Part shown: one piece after another, positions 39,787 through 45,500 of the stretch | Position numbering within the stretch: the stretch's first letter is position 1 | How the letters are laid out: each line of letters starts with the position of its first letter | DNA from: Lactobacillus psittaci DSM 15354 | GTDB taxonomy: Bacteria; Bacillota; Bacilli; Lactobacillales; Lactobacillaceae | Direction of reading: 5' to 3' | NCBI RefSeq assembly: GCF_000425905.1 | Contig: NZ_AUEI01000008.1 | Coordinates: 1 to 64,000 of the forward strand | DNA length: 64,000 bases | Translations under genes and position numbers: made by a program | Notes under the pieces: generated by a model | Database searches by the model: none | Seen by the model: the letters and a program-made list of their open reading frames with translations, nothing else | Told to the model about the DNA's origin: nothing

Positions 39787-39830
39787 AAATAGTGAATTAA
39801 TTATCTTGTTAGATAATTAATTCACTATTT
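39787..39830 (-). terminator. Strong terminator of the lanthipeptide precursor transcript
   Basis: Two perfect 20-base arms (39787-39806 and 39811-39830) surround a 4-base loop. On the minus strand seven T residues follow. The only minus-strand gene upstream is the peptide ORF at 39916-40023, giving a transcript of about 260 bases. Confidence 0.8.
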
Positions 39831-39915
39831 GGTCTAGAGGGTAAAAAAGCAATGCTATTAAATTTACCTAAGCTAGCTTAACTTAAATATACAAATGATA
39901 TTTACTAAAAATAAA

Positions 39916-40023
39916 CTAATCCTTCATTTTGCACTTCCATGTAAAATTGGTAAAGTCCACTTTTGTGTCTTTGTCCTTTTCGGTTTGGGCACAAAGCTTT
40001 TGCAATTTGAGCATTTCTTCCAT
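39916..40023 (-). CDS. lanA: Putative class III lanthipeptide precursor (LanA), 35 residues
   Basis: This small ORF was found by reading the minus strand. The product starts MEEMLKLQKL, matching the conserved class III leader motif (I/L-x-x-LQ-x-L, as in labyrinthopeptin and SapB leaders). A charged linker EKDKDTK follows, then the candidate core FTNFTWKCKMKD. T25-x2-T28-x2-C31 fits the S/T-x2-S/T-x(2-5)-C pattern that LanKC enzymes turn into labionin or lanthionine. AAAAAAGGAG lies 9 bases before the ATG, with a strong promoter and a terminator around it. It is divergent from the LanKC-like gene. An overlapping 40-codon frame starts at 40027 with the same ribosome site but lacks these features. 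There is no direct proof of modification. Confidence 0.75.
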   Translation of the reverse strand: MEEMLKLQKLCAQTEKDKDTKVDFTNFTWKCKMKD

Positions 40024-40054
40024 ACATATCATCTCCTTTTTTGGATTTAGCTTA

Positions 40055-40083
40055 ACTATAAATGATTTTATTATTAACGTCAA
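40055..40083 (-). promoter_or_regulatory. Promoter of the precursor peptide gene
   Basis: Read on the minus strand: -35 TTGACG (40078-40083), a 17-base spacer, and -10 TATAGT (40055-40060). The expected start is near 40048, about 25 bases before the peptide ATG. Confidence 0.75.
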
Positions 40084-40167
40084 CATATTTTTTAAATAAT
40101 TCCCAACAAAATAAAAAAGTGTGATAAAATAATTAGCAAATAAAAAATGCTTAAAGAAGGTGTAAAA

Positions 40168-42390
40168 ATGAGGGGACCTTGTGATATTTTACCTAAAAGT
40201 TTTGATGATGAAGATAAAAAATATTTTGGTCTATCTTCAGACAATTATTACGCGCAATTTAATTTTGAAGACAAAGAAGAAATACCTTTGCAAGGATTTA
40301 AAATCCATATTTCTGCAACAATTCATAATTATGAAGAGGTGATTAATCATTGTTTTGAATTCTGCAAGAATCAGAAAATTAATTTTAAATATATTGCAAA
40401 GAGAAAAGAAATTGAAAAGAATTTAAACGGTTTTGTTTGTTCATGGGCAATTGGAAAGGTAATTACTATTTATCCTACTACTCATAGGTTTAAAAATATT
40501 CTGCTAAGTTTACATAATAATGATTTTTTCAAAAGACAACAGGGCGTTACAATTTTTTCTGATAGAAGATATAAGGACTCAGAATTAATTTTTTACAGAT
40601 TTGGTAGACTGATTGGACCAGGAAAAGAAATCGTTAATCCTGTTACAAAGAAAATTGAATATTATGATTATGATAGCCCTACTTATAAAATACCTAGTTG
40701 GATAGAAGAACCATTTCCTAATAATATTGATGATTTACGGCAAGCTACTAAATTTTACAAAGAATATATTCCAATTGCTGCAGTTAATCACAAAGGATCA
40801 GGGGCTACATTTATAGCTAAACAAGCAAAAGAGGAAAGAGAAATTATATTAAAAAATGCTCACCCAAATTTCTTTTGTGAGAATATATCTATAATTAACC
40901 TTTTGAAACGTGAAAAGGAAAACTTAATAAGTCTTTCGGACTTAGATTTTATCCCTAAATATGTTGATGATTTTTTTGAAAATAAAGATTACTTCTTGTG
41001 TGAAGAAAAAATGGAAGGGATAGTTGCTAGTGAATTAAGATCGCTAGAAAGATTTGATTTCTTAAATTCTAAAAAAAGACAGGATACTTTAAGATTTTAT
41101 CGCTTGTTAATTCTCGATTTGCTTAGAAAGGTTGATTTACTTCATAAAAGGAAATTTTTTATTGGAGATATTTCAGATAATAATTTAATAATTAATCTTA
41201 AGTCTGGAAGGGTTTCATTTATAGATCTTGCGCAAAGTAAATATATAAATAAAAGGGAACCAGATGATAAAGTGTTCTTTAGAACTATGGGTTATTATGA
41301 TAAAAGAATTGATGATTTATCATTATTGGATCAAGATAAAGCACAATTAGTCTATCTATTAATATCTTTATTTTCGAGAGCAAACATGTTTTTAAAGCTT
41401 GACAATAGTGGAAAAACCACAATTAAATTCTTTAAAAAATACAGTAATTTTTATAAAATTCCGCAAGCATTTGTTACTTTGATTTTTAAGCTGTATCGTA
41501 ATCCAACTCAAAGCTTAAAACCATTGATAAATGAGCTAGAAAATGCTGATTTAAGTATTGAATATCATTTTGAGGAAAAATATGATATTCAAAAAATAGA
41601 AAGAAACTTAAAGCAGACAATTTTTATTAATCAATTGAAATTAAAAAGGGCAAAAGAATCTTATAGTAAGAAAGGAAACGATAGCAAAGATTTATTTATT
41701 AGTACTTTAGAATATGGAAGCTATGAAATAACTGAGAAATTAAAGAAGAAGATTTACGATGAATGGAGGATTAACAAAATAAAGATGGAGGGGGCTGTAA
41801 AGCAATATTCTGACTTGAAATCCGACGATGTAATCGCTACGTTATTTTGCATGATTGTTTATATTAAACCTGAGTTAGTTGATATACAAGAGTACTTGAA
41901 GAGTGTGTTTAATAAGTTTCTAGTTGTTTCTGGTAAAGGATATTATTTAAAGCTAACGGAAGGTAGTTCACAAGTTTCACCATATTTATCTAATGGATCT
42001 GCTGGATTGCTATTATGTCTGTTAGAAATAAGGCAAGGGTATAATACAGAATTATATGATAATTTAATTTTGAAGCTTGTAAAAACTTTGAAAAGTAGTG
42101 AGATACCTCAAAGAGGCTCAGTTGTCAATGGATTGGCAGGTATTGTTATAGCAATCTCTAAATATAAAATGATTTTTAGAGATACAGCTGTAGATAGTCG
42201 TATACGGGAACTAGTCGATATAATTCCATATTATTTATATAAAAAGGATAAATTACTTTACTTGATTGATGATACGTTTGGAGATGTTTCTGTAAAATTT
42301 AAAGATGGAAATAAAGGGATTGTAAAAATAATAAGTGATTTGAAGAAAAATAATTTTTTTAATCAGGAGGAGAATCAATGTCGTTTTTAA
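40168..42390 (+). CDS. lanKC: Class III lanthionine synthetase (LanKC-like), short cyclase domain
   Basis: This protein is about 740 residues. The N-terminal lyase-like part (~30-200) has GFKIHISATIHNYEEVINH, KVITIYPTTHRFKNIL and TIFSDRRYKDSELIFYRFGR, the RamC/LanKC signature. The kinase part (~200-465) has a candidate ATP-binding Lys in FIAKQAKEER, the catalytic-loop HKRKFFIGDISDNN and IDLAQ in the DFG position. The LanC-like C-terminus shows SNGSAGLLLCLLEIRQGYN and RGSVVNGLAGIVIAISK but ends early; family members are usually ~850-900 residues. ATG at 40168 follows AGAAGGTG. The last 13 bases overlap the ABC exporter gene. It is very AT-rich with many AAA/ATA codons, unlike neighbouring genes, suggesting acquisition. 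It likely dehydrates and cyclises the 39916-40023 peptide. Confidence 0.82.
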   Translation: MRGPCDILPKSFDDEDKKYFGLSSDNYYAQFNFEDKEEIPLQGFKIHISATIHNYEEVINHCFEFCKNQKINFKYIAKRKEIEKNLNGFVCSWAIGKVITIYPTTHRFKNILLSLHNNDFFKRQQGVTIFSDRRYKDSELIFYRFGRLIGPGKEIVNPVTKKIEYYDYDSPTYKIPSWIEEPFPNNIDDLRQATKFYKEYIPIAAVNHKGSGATFIAKQAKEEREIILKNAHPNFFCENISIINLLKREKENLISLSDLDFIPKYVDDFFENKDYFLCEEKMEGIVASELRSLERFDFLNSKKRQDTLRFYRLLILDLLRKVDLLHKRKFFIGDISDNNLIINLKSGRVSFIDLAQSKYINKREPDDKVFFRTMGYYDKRIDDLSLLDQDKAQLVYLLISLFSRANMFLKLDNSGKTTIKFFKKYSNFYKIPQAFVTLIFKLYRNPTQSLKPLINELENADLSIEYHFEEKYDIQKIERNLKQTIFINQLKLKRAKESYSKKGNDSKDLFISTLEYGSYEITEKLKKKIYDEWRINKIKMEGAVKQYSDLKSDDVIATLFCMIVYIKPELVDIQEYLKSVFNKFLVVSGKGYYLKLTEGSSQVSPYLSNGSAGLLLCLLEIRQGYNTELYDNLILKLVKTLKSSEIPQRGSVVNGLAGIVIAISKYKMIFRDTAVDSRIRELVDIIPYYLYKKDKLLYLIDDTFGDVSVKFKDGNKGIVKIISDLKKNNFFNQEENQCRF

Positions 42391-43964
42391 AGCTGCTCAA
42401 AACCAACTGGCTAAGAGCAATTAGTTTTATTGTCTTGGCAATTGCATCAGCGAGTCTAGTTGCTCTGGGAAATTCATATTTAACTAGTCTGGGTAACTCG
42501 TTATTAAAGTATAATGTTAACATTTTTATAACTTATATTTTAATTTTCTTCCTTGTAGGAACTTTGGGAGAAATATTGGGTTTTATCGCAACATATTTGT
42601 TCAATAAGCAAGTTCAAGCCTATCTCCATCAGATTAGGGCTAAAATAGTTAATAAGTTGTTTGGGCAAAAAGAAATTACCAAACCAACAGATGTTCAAAA
42701 CTCACTAACTAATGATTTGAATATGATGAACGATAACTTTTTAACGCCGATTTATCAAATTATCAGTTCAATTTTTAATATTGTATTTTCAATTGCCATT
42801 GTCTTTACTTATAGCTGGATTTTAGTGGTTTTAATTTTAATCTTGGCAGTAGCAATGTTTGTCTTGCCACAACTTATCTCAAAGCCGCTTGAAAAAGCGA
42901 CAGTTGCTGTTTCTGAAAATAATAAAGAATATCTTGATACAATCGAAAAGTGGTTTAAAGGTATTGCAATTTTGAAGCGTTATAACGTTAAAGCAAAATT
43001 ATTTCAGGTCTTAGCTAAGAGTTCTGATAAGTTGGAAAAAGCAAACGTTAATCGCTCAAAAAAGGTTAGTCAAACCTCAATCTTTAATGACTTAGTTAAT
43101 GGTTCAGCCCAAGTATTAATTATCTTTACAGCTGGATTATTGGTAGTAACTAAGAATATGCCATTTGGTGCCTTTTTTAGTATCGGTAACTTTTCTGGAG
43201 TAATTTTTACGGGGTTGTTTACTATTGTTAGTCAGATTACTTTGATTCAATCTAGTAAGCAATTGAACCAAAAAATTACTGCTAATATGACAGTAGAAGA
43301 TACTGAACTTGCTAGTGATAGTTTGGATAATTTTGCGACTGTTTCTGGCCAAGATTTAACCCTTAACTTCCCTAATGGTGAGCAGTTACGTTTCCCAGAT
43401 TTTGAAGTTAAACAAGGTGAAAAGGTTCTTTTAACGGGTGAAAGTGGAGCCGGGAAGTCAACACTGTTTAAGTTAATTTTAGATGAACTAACGCCAAGTA
43501 GCGGAAAAATTATCTTCAAAGACAAAAATGGTAAGCTTCTCAAGCCTAACTTGAATCAAATTGGTTATATTCCGCAAGATCCAGTCTTATTCCCTGGAAC
43601 AATTCAAGAAAATATCACACTCTTTAATGATTCTTTGAATGAAAAAGCAAAAGCTTGGGCTGACAAGGTTCAATTAGGAACTGATTTAACCAAGTTCCCT
43701 CAAGGGATTAAGACTATGGCTGATTTAGATAAAGATAATTTATCAGGTGGGCAAAGACAGAAGGTAGTCTTGGCCCGGACCCAAGTTTATGAAAGTAAGT
43801 TAGTCTTAATTGATGAAGGGACTAGTGCAATTGATTCTAAGAATACGCAAATTATTTTGCAGAATTTATTGCAAAGTCCCGCTACTGTCATCTTTATTGC
43901 CCATAATTTAACTCCTGAAATGCATAAGTTATTCGACCGAGAATTGAAGTTGACTAAGGCATAA
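42378..43964 (+). CDS. lanT: ABC transporter, fused membrane and ATPase domains (lanthipeptide exporter candidate)
   Basis: This 528-residue half-transporter has six membrane helices in residues ~15-300 (type IV exporter fold). The ATPase has Walker A LTGESGAGKSTLFKL, Q-loop GYIPQDPVLF, signature NLSGGQRQKVVLAR and Walker B LVLIDEGTSAIDS. There is no N-terminal C39 peptidase domain, so leader removal must be done elsewhere. GGAGGAG precedes the ATG inside the end of the LanKC gene; the overlap implies coupled translation. It probably works as a homodimer exporting the modified peptide. A composition closer to the host than the LanKC gene is noticeable in its second half. Confidence 0.82.
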   Translation: MSFLKLLKTNWLRAISFIVLAIASASLVALGNSYLTSLGNSLLKYNVNIFITYILIFFLVGTLGEILGFIATYLFNKQVQAYLHQIRAKIVNKLFGQKEITKPTDVQNSLTNDLNMMNDNFLTPIYQIISSIFNIVFSIAIVFTYSWILVVLILILAVAMFVLPQLISKPLEKATVAVSENNKEYLDTIEKWFKGIAILKRYNVKAKLFQVLAKSSDKLEKANVNRSKKVSQTSIFNDLVNGSAQVLIIFTAGLLVVTKNMPFGAFFSIGNFSGVIFTGLFTIVSQITLIQSSKQLNQKITANMTVEDTELASDSLDNFATVSGQDLTLNFPNGEQLRFPDFEVKQGEKVLLTGESGAGKSTLFKLILDELTPSSGKIIFKDKNGKLLKPNLNQIGYIPQDPVLFPGTIQENITLFNDSLNEKAKAWADKVQLGTDLTKFPQGIKTMADLDKDNLSGGQRQKVVLARTQVYESKLVLIDEGTSAIDSKNTQIILQNLLQSPATVIFIAHNLTPEMHKLFDRELKLTKA

Positions 43965-44003: not shown

Positions 44004-45500
44004 CTAACTAGTTAACTCTATCTTTCTCTCAGCTACTTGCTCAATGAAATATTTATCATGCTCAACTAGAATCATAGCAGGTTTAGTTTGCTTTAGCAGC
44101 TTAATTAATTGATCCTGATTAAAAACATCTAGATAATTTGCGGGTTCATCCCATAAGTAAAAGTCAGCGTCTTCAACTAATGATTTTGCCAACGCGACTC
44201 TTTTTTGCTGGCCCATGCTCATATCTTCAATTTTTAAGGTAAAGTCAGCTCGCGGAAAGCCCATTTTTTTCAAATTATTCAGCAAATCAGAATATGTAAT
44301 GTGTTCTTTTTCAGAAAACTCCTTTAAGGTGCCAGTATATGTTGAAAAAGTCTGTGGCAAGTAGGAAATTTTTAACCCATTTGCTAGTATCATTTTGCCA
44401 CTAGCTTCAGCCTTAGACTTATTCAGAATAAATTTTAGTAGGGTAGATTTACCAGAACCATTTTTCCCTTCTAGGGCAACAATACCATGATTTTTAATGA
44501 TTAAGTTTAAGTCTTGAAATAAAGGTTTATTATCAATTCTTAAACTTAAGTGTTGCAGTTCTAGGAGAGTTTGATGGTAATTAGGGCTAAAGTTCATTAA
44601 TAATTCTGGTGCCTTTTCAATATTAGTTAAAAGGCCTTCTTTTTCAGTTATCTTTTTATTTACTCGTTGCTGCATAGTGATTGAGCGTTTCATTATTTTG
44701 GCAGCTTTATGACCATAAAAGCCCTTATTGATATCAGCGTGAATTTCATTTTTATGGGCAGCAGCAGTTTTGTTTTTCTCCGATTTTTCAGAAAAATTCT
44801 TAATTTGTCTAGCGCTCTTTTTGAGTGAAGCAATCTCGCTTTTTAGCTTAAGATTTTTTTCTTGATTATATTTGTCTCGCTTATCTTTAGTTGCTTCATA
44901 ACTAGCATAATTACCTTGATATAAGTGAATTTCATTATTCTCAATTGCCAGCACGTGATTGCTGACTTCATTTAAGAAGTCACGATCGTGACTGACAATA
45001 ATATACCCTTCTTTGTGCTTTTTCAGGTAGTTGGCAACTTGCCTTCTGTTAGCTACATCTAGGTGGTTAGTTGGTTCATCAATTAAGGCAAAAGAATTCT
45101 GGCTAACAAACGATAAAGCTAACAAAACCATCGTCTGCTCGCCACCACTTAAAGTATTAAATGGCTGCCAAAGTAAATCGGGATTAAGCTGCATTAAGTT
45201 TAGTTCGCGCTCTAATTGCCAAACTTCGAAGTTAACTTGATTCTGCAGTTCATATAAAACTAGATTGTCTGGATTAGCAATTTTGATAGGGAAGTAGGAA
45301 AAAGTTAGATTAGTTGAAATCTCGCCACTTCCTTTGAGTTTGCCTCGCAGTAGGTTCAGGAATGTTGTTTTTCCACGACCATTTCTACCAACTAAGCCTA
45401 GTTTCCAAGAACTATCTAAATTAAGATTTAAATTAGAAAAAATAACTTTATCGCTATTGTCATAGCTGAATGATAGATTGCTTATTTTAATAATACTCAT
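44004..45500 (-). CDS. ABC-F protein, Lsa-type ribosome protection candidate
   Basis: This 498-residue cytosolic protein has two ATPase domains and no membrane segment. Domain 1: GLVGRNGRGKTTFLNLL, LSGGEQTMVLLAL, FALIDEPTNHLDVANRR. Domain 2: ALEGKNGSGKSTLLKF, MSMGQQKRVALAKSL, FYLWDEPANYLDVFNQ. A Lys-rich linker (~190-290) includes AAKIMKRSITMQQRV. Order and wording resemble Enterococcus LsaA, which protects ribosomes from lincosamides, streptogramin A and pleuromutilins. Resistance here is inferred, not shown; some homologues are housekeeping. GGAGGTG lies before the ATG. It sits between the peptide exporter and an MFS gene. Confidence 0.8.
   Translation of the reverse strand: MSIIKISNLSFSYDNSDKVIFSNLNLNLDSSWKLGLVGRNGRGKTTFLNLLRGKLKGSGEISTNLTFSYFPIKIANPDNLVLYELQNQVNFEVWQLERELNLMQLNPDLLWQPFNTLSGGEQTMVLLALSFVSQNSFALIDEPTNHLDVANRRQVANYLKKHKEGYIIVSHDRDFLNEVSNHVLAIENNEIHLYQGNYASYEATKDKRDKYNQEKNLKLKSEIASLKKSARQIKNFSEKSEKNKTAAAHKNEIHADINKGFYGHKAAKIMKRSITMQQRVNKKITEKEGLLTNIEKAPELLMNFSPNYHQTLLELQHLSLRIDNKPLFQDLNLIIKNHGIVALEGKNGSGKSTLLKFILNKSKAEASGKMILANGLKISYLPQTFSTYTGTLKEFSEKEHITYSDLLNNLKKMGFPRADFTLKIEDMSMGQQKRVALAKSLVEDADFYLWDEPANYLDVFNQDQLIKLLKQTKPAMILVEHDKYFIEQVAERKIELTS

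Follow-up and report, generated by a model that had tools for sequence, protein, structure and literature searches.

The locus and its relatives

The 64,000-nucleotide stretch analysed here (the window; positions 1 to 64,000 of contig NZ_AUEI01000008.1 of Lactobacillus psittaci DSM 15354) carries, next to each other, a 35-codon open reading frame (ORF) for a peptide precursor, a divergent gene for a LanKC-like synthetase and, overlapping the latter by 13 bases, a gene of the ATP-binding cassette (ABC) exporter type. On the sequence evidence, this cluster is a real, reduced-cyclase variant of the class III lanthipeptide systems, and we suggest that it is probably a compact lanthipeptide cluster in which the LanKC modifies the precursor, one methyllanthionine ring is formed and the ABC exporter secretes the peptide. 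The features are as follows.

39787..39830, minus strand: terminator-like hairpin of lanA, a perfect 20-bp stem with a 4-base loop
39916..40023, minus strand: lanA-like precursor gene, 35 residues; an ORF with a ribosome site and a 91% identical counterpart in the same place in L. jensenii DSM 20557 (G022)
39931..39942, minus strand: predicted ring residues Thr28-Trp-Lys-Cys31; [ST]-x-x-C at 9/9 core cysteines of six independent precursors
39994..40014, minus strand: leader recognition motif M4-L5-K6-L7-Q8-K9-L10; LQ-x-L in the same register in 7/7 clade precursors
40033..40037, minus strand: ribosome-binding site AGGAG, nine bases ahead of the ATG
40055..40083, minus strand: promoter-like site of lanA, TTGACG-17-TATAGT, 10/12 matches
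40168..42390, plus strand: LanKC-like synthetase, 740 residues, with reduced cyclase; matches to PF25816, to NF038151 (below cut-off) and to LanKCs in the PDB
40240..40722, plus strand: lyase domain, about residues 25-185; K45, H47, K74, K97, D132, R144
40765..41562, plus strand: kinase domain, about residues 200-465; K229, E249, D334, N339, D353
41563..42387, plus strand: reduced LanC-like cyclase domain, 275 residues; length comparison, AlphaFold2 model and Foldseek
42378..43964, plus strand: ABC half-transporter, presumed exporter; PF00664 and PF00005

The first-pass annotation of this DNA had described the minus-strand ORF with its ribosome site, the terminator stem, the divergent LanKC-like gene and the overlapping exporter-type gene, and all of these are found as described. 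The near-consensus promoter is likewise present, with both hexamers identical in L. jensenii, but such sites are no rarer in shuffled sequence (2 found by scan vs 4.8 in shuffles) and alone it proves nothing. The LanKC-like ORF has an alternative start at 40147.

Related loci of six kinds were found, in L. jensenii, on L. gasseri plasmids, in L. kefiranofaciens, in Lactobacillus sp. ESL0246, in Levilactobacillus brevis and in G011 (G and L numbers are our handles for genomes and loci); together with the window they are referred to as the clade. The LanKC of L. jensenii DSM 20557 is 95% identical to that of the window, those of L. kefiranofaciens ATCC 43761, ESL0246 and Levilactobacillus brevis CD0817 are 36-38% identical, and the scan of named genomes gave three further, distant LanKCs. 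Among 67 records, 80% query coverage was reached at only four places, all on plasmids (three of L. gasseri, one of L. kefiranofaciens), where the LanKC carries the annotation 'lanthionine synthetase LanC family protein'. Some LanKC match is present in 25 of 75 genomes of the genus, with E < 1e-90 only in the window genome (G000), G022, G027, G041 and G011. The first-pass annotation had proposed a search for divergent peptide-LanKC pairs in other Lactobacillus genomes and had counted loss of the peptide frame from homologous loci as refutation: such pairs exist, among others in L. jensenii, L. gasseri, L. kefiranofaciens and ESL0246, and each of the seven clade lineages, counting the window, has a precursor gene that neighbours the LanKC gene and is divergent from it. 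At the L. brevis locus a transposase gene is inserted between the two. A tree of the lyase-kinase part, without the cyclase, unites the six intact enzymes of the clade with 100/100 support, and the short cyclase is therefore an independent shared trait of these enzymes.

The precursor peptide

The ORF divergent from the LanKC-like gene, which encodes MEEMLKLQKLCAQTEKDKDTKVDFTNFTWKCKMKD, is a real precursor observation. We defined candidate precursors by a rule (ATG start, 25-80 residues, a ribosome site, a leader motif near the start and then [ST]xxC or a labionin motif) that had been shaped by an earlier look at the loci. In the 64-kb window, searched on both strands with gene interiors included, the rule fits one ORF with two possible starts, and 2/2000 random regions with the same base-step composition contain a fitting ORF. 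Around 51 Lactobacillaceae LanKC loci, including that of the window, the rule picks out 44 small ORFs at distances of up to 2.5 kb, at least one of them at 35/51 loci, compared to a single ORF in non-coding DNA farther away (53.2 kb near vs 52.0 kb far); this ratio is not a probability, given that some loci are near-copies, that 3/44 ORFs encode another peptide type and that the rule was shaped beforehand. The L. gasseri plasmids, which were found by means of the enzyme alone, provided a fresh test: among the ATG-started ORFs of 20-79 residues listed upstream of the LanKC exactly one was marked, a peptide of 32 residues, MQELIELQELDVEVNATEAEWTGICSNQISTK. The window and L. jensenii precursor genes differ by five base changes only, which is the extent of the comparison of codon-level conservation between them.

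The precursors of the clade (32-44 residues) share the leader M-x-E-[LM]-x-x-LQ-x-L, with Leu instead of Glu in ESL0246, and a leader of the LxLQ type is present in 7/7. This resembles the ThurA1 leader, with its V-L-x-L-Q-x-L, as it is bound in ThurKC (PMC10604976). Of the motif I/L-x-x-LQ-x-L named in the first-pass annotation, the LQ-x-L part is present, but the first hydrophobic position is Met4, neither Ile nor Leu.

The cores of the seven precursors contain TWKC, TWKC, SYKC, SKFC and TIFC, TFYC and TISC, TIAC and SHDC, and TGIC. Taking the window and L. jensenii precursors as one, a Ser or Thr is found at position -3 of 9/9 core cysteines in six independent precursors, at -4 of 0/9 and at -6 of 1/9, and 0/20000 permutations were as extreme as the -3 pattern. 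The peptides of L. kefiranofaciens, ESL0246 and G011 entered this count after a search by leader and any Cys, with Ser/Thr not required; the L. brevis peptide was chosen by inspection of a list to which no filter had been applied, and hence not blindly. The contrast between -3 and -6 favours one four-residue (methyl)lanthionine ring between Thr28 and Cys31 over a labionin. Of the spacing T25-x2-T28-x2-C31 to which the first-pass annotation had pointed, the inner Thr28-x2-Cys31 is thus conserved, but the position of Thr25 is not. The labionin motif S/T-x2-S/T-x(2-5)-C fits the window and L. jensenii peptides and is not kept across the clade; it looks like a feature of these two sister peptides only.

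The synthetase and its shortened cyclase

The assignment of the 740-residue protein as LanKC-like, made from the letters alone in the first-pass annotation, is borne out by profile searches: the RamC_N lyase domain (PF25816) matches with 4e-26 and 92.1 bits (cut-off 27), and the best PDB matches are LanKCs and not the unrelated kinase family named there as a refutation. The class requires more care. The enzyme is class III-like, scoring 212.5 bits (1.2e-62) with the curated class III synthetase model NF038151 and 138.2 of 650 bits with the class IV model, and class III also scores above class IV in the two relatives tried, but the NF038151 cut-off of 575 bits is missed and the cyclase is clearly shortened. 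The kinase region stays under the cut-off of PF00069 (19.6/31.7 bits); its alignment to ThurKC spans most of the kinase. Most of the catalytic residues are conserved: with ThurKC chain numbers shifted by three to fit the numbering of PMC10604976, the lyase residues K65, H67, K94, K117, D152 and R163 correspond to K45, H47, K74, K97, D132 and R144 and the kinase residues K257 and E279 to K229 and E249, and the catalytic Asp (D334), N339 and the Asp of the DF(G/E) motif (D353) are kept. At the eleven lyase and kinase positions examined, no variation is seen among the six intact enzymes of the clade.

Measured from a common alignment column, the cyclase has 275 residues in the window, 272-309 in the clade and 387-403 in three full-length LanKCs, a shortfall of about 100 residues. 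Similarly, 384-421 residues follow D353 in the clade as opposed to 452-532 in longer Lactobacillaceae enzymes; across other enzymes of the family this number ranges from 290 to 532, and in some it is only 94-185. The C-terminal domain is LanC-like, with a PF05147 match just under the cut-off (20.9/23.2 bits), and lacks zinc ligands, no Cys or His being found at the aligned positions of the window cyclase (S608, V653, N654); a full-length cyclase toroid is not present. S608 of ThurKC, in the numbering of PMC10604976, aligns with a non-conserved stretch of the window cyclase. In weak alignments, the counterparts of ThurKC F770/D771 are Met-His, Tyr-His and Tyr-Arg in three relatives, and in five clade members Asp771 is matched by Asn, His or Arg. 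Within the cyclase, a PY-S motif and several glycines do not vary across the clade. An AlphaFold2 model of the cyclase alone contains about ten helices (predicted local distance difference test 66.7). A complete LanC toroid has fourteen. Foldseek searches with this middling model gave ThurKC, SalKC and PneKC as the best hits (E from 8e-5 upwards, TMq near 0.5).

Based on these comparisons, the clade may constitute a distinct minimal lanthipeptide system, a proposal that we put forward tentatively and hold to be somewhat less than even in probability. The cyclase would consist of about five helical hairpins without the Asp667 part and be specialised for single four-residue (methyl)lanthionine rings on precursors of 32-44 residues; the system would be encoded on both plasmids and chromosomes, in lactobacilli from food and from the human urogenital tract, and the further-shortened and cyclase-less relatives would reflect stepwise cyclase loss. 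With two genes only, such a system lends itself to asking what minimum of a LanC toroid suffices to close a thioether ring.

Other loci show further arrangements. Cyclase-less lyase-kinase proteins of 416-447 residues lie behind peptides of 76-95 residues ending in motifs such as GALSGAHS...C at five loci (L057 5477-7356, on L. jensenii contig G022:C4; L058 5420-7341; L118 4763-6620; L113 4343-6167; L062 5168-6850), with an uncharacterised protein of 102-124 residues between peptide and enzyme in 4/5. In the L057 set, the only one checked by profiles, RamC_N scores 81 and Pkinase 46.7 bits and the peptide resembles the NHLP Os17 family under the cut-off (31.2/40); these loci are possibly a separate, dehydratase-only system for ribosomally synthesised and post-translationally modified peptides. 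Lactobacillus loci with LanKCs of canonical length (L045 9980-10299, L052 8675-8981, L053 3163-3624, L038, L039, L040, L041 and L050 3511-8359) hold one to three precursors of 42-52 residues, mostly with a core like SLICGH or RSLICFH. Among L182-L191, from genomes of the same order, 9/10 LanKCs are shortened (644-806 residues; 877 in L188), and beside several of them lies a regulator whose start resembles Rgg/MutR proteins. At L112 (7123-7382), two near-identical 35-residue precursors stand in tandem beside a LanKC of 604 residues.

Pathway, alternatives and known systems

Combining these data, we propose that the LanKC-like enzyme binds the precursor through its short leader, that the kinase domain phosphorylates Thr28 and perhaps other Ser/Thr residues, and that the lyase domain removes the phosphate to give dehydrobutyrine. 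The small, zinc-free cyclase would then join Cys31 to residue 28, yielding a single methyllanthionine ring of four residues close to the C-terminus, and the ABC half-transporter would export the peptide as a homodimer. An exporter-type gene adjoins every clade synthetase read, with identities to the window exporter of 39-50% beside the LanKCs of G011, G041, G027 and G299 and of 97% in G022. The domain search of the exporter revealed no peptidase domain; the protease that removes the leader is therefore probably encoded elsewhere, and an M16B-type pair in the genome is a candidate, M16_C matches occurring as pairs in 5/6 genomes. M16-family proteases mature other class III peptides of Firmicutes (PMC8960859). 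The product would probably be a small bacteriocin or signal, and since the same kind of cluster is carried by L. gasseri plasmids from human urine, the peptide may act in urogenital competition or signalling.

At the syntenic site of L. jensenii DSM 20557 (L146 7893-9858, L003) the same flanking genes enclose an ABC ATPase (broken) and permease pair and a 3' exporter remnant; the contig with the cluster appears to fit the assembly gap at this site, the contigs not being joined. Such ATPase/permease pairs often confer self-protection, and this one is a weak hint at a bacteriocin. At L147 4515-7720 (G000:C2), ABC half-transporters sharing 38-40% identity with the exporter lie in tandem with no LanKC seen adjacent, and similar pairs are found in G027 and G011. 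On either side of the cluster itself lie a gene resembling L-lactate oxidase and, at 44004-45500 on the minus strand, a gene for an Lsa-like ABC-F protein (457 bits vs the general ABC-F cut-off of 380 and 604 bits vs the Lsa cut-off of 750), with no tie to the cluster seen.

Several observations weigh against the proposed pathway. When the enzyme is aligned to ThurKC by profile, two parts of the ThurKC cyclase find no counterpart, one of about 68 residues (~519-586) and one of about 48 (~620-667) that includes D667; F770/D771 become V653/N654, so that Asp771 is replaced by Asn as far as a weak cyclase alignment goes; K108 and R191 of the ThurKC lyase align with Phe and Asp; and by VIA-align unrelated alpha-toroids score best with the cyclase model. 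The lost stretches and changed residues could render dehydration or closure weaker or different. The window peptide remains below the cut-off of the curated class III precursor model NF038154 (17.2/22 bits), with which one of six relatives' precursors reached 15 bits and five gave no match. Of the six genomes searched for the M16_C pair, ESL0246 yielded none, and G011 has an internal stop in one of its two copies; the LanKC gene of G011 is divided between contigs, with an interrupted reading frame.

Some of these points are shared by a reading in which the cyclase is non-catalytic, only holding the kinase active, and the dehydrated peptide either closes its small ring by itself or stays open. 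This reading draws on the loss of about 100 residues including the D667 stretch, on the residues at the Asp771 position, on the existence of relatives with little or no cyclase and on the dependence of ThurKC dehydration on its cyclase (PMC10604976); nevertheless, that every core Cys of the clade has Ser/Thr exactly at -3 implies that a ring is selected for, the PY-S motif and glycines are invariant, and we regard this alternative as quite unlikely. That Thr25, Thr28 and Cys31 are instead joined in the triple link of a methyl-labionin would accord with the motif in the window and L. jensenii and with the labionin made by the ThurKC group of LanKCs (PMC10604976), but it is unlikely in view of the single Ser/Thr among nine -6 positions and of the G155 relative from another genus, which keeps TWKC with the other Thr two residues before it rather than three.

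Decay of the cluster, with the product no longer made in the window strain, could be read from the broken G011 enzyme, the disrupted ABC gene nearby in L. jensenii and the 8/25 L. mulieris strains without an antiSMASH call in PMC10449518; with the precursor, LanKC and exporter ORFs of the window intact and a pN of 0.020 vs a pS of 0.071 (nonsynonymous and synonymous differences) between the window and L. jensenii LanKCs, we find this very unlikely. A class IV (LanL) cluster is what antiSMASH called in 17/25 L. mulieris strains in the same source, but it is extremely improbable here: the class IV profile scores lower, also in the relatives tried, the zinc-ligand positions align with Ser, Val and Asn, and the nearest structures are class III. 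The pathway with one methyllanthionine ring thus remains the reading that we favour.

That published cluster is very probably the one described here, an identity inferred from its description, because the species group is the same, G000 has a single LanKC match and the L. jensenii protein is 95% identical. The section of PMC10449518 on this 'lanthipeptide-class-iv' biosynthetic gene cluster (QGR95320) mentions ~38% relatives in L. crispatus, names no precursor and, besides the 17/25 calls in L. mulieris, reports 0/36, which differs from the presence of the cluster in L. jensenii DSM 20557. The first-pass claim that none is characterised from this Lactobacillus group therefore needs qualification. 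In the open PMC literature seen (including PMC7268733, PMC10206099, PMC10134562 and PMC12366303), no precursor or product of the cluster was found, though other papers may hold one; what is very probably this cluster, as a prediction, and an earlier-mined Lactobacillus class III precursor group (Pre_181 in PMC8960859) are in print. The novelty is smaller than first thought. The analysis offers a candidate substrate for a cluster that was described from many L. mulieris genomes with no precursor assigned, and it corrects the class.

Among known systems, the window enzyme resembles most closely the class III LanKCs ThurKC (andalusicin), PneKC and SalKC, its best sequence and Foldseek matches, in the lyase-kinase-LanC order, the zinc-free cyclase and the LQ leader motif. 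PneKC and SalKC are, by their titles, class III enzymes with solved structures and presumably of streptococcal origin. The best NCBIfam model of the exporter is the streptosactin exporter GggC, yet its score is far below the cut-off (155.9 vs 750 bits). Other Lactobacillaceae class III systems share the leader motif and a frequent S-x2-C, as in SLICGH, but have the longer region after D353 and lie on separate tree branches. Unlike ThurKC, the window enzyme lacks the two cyclase stretches, including that with D667, and does not keep K108, R191 and D771 as aligned; unlike the three full-length LanKCs compared, it combines a cyclase of 275 instead of 387-403 residues with the short [ST]xxC precursors of its clade.

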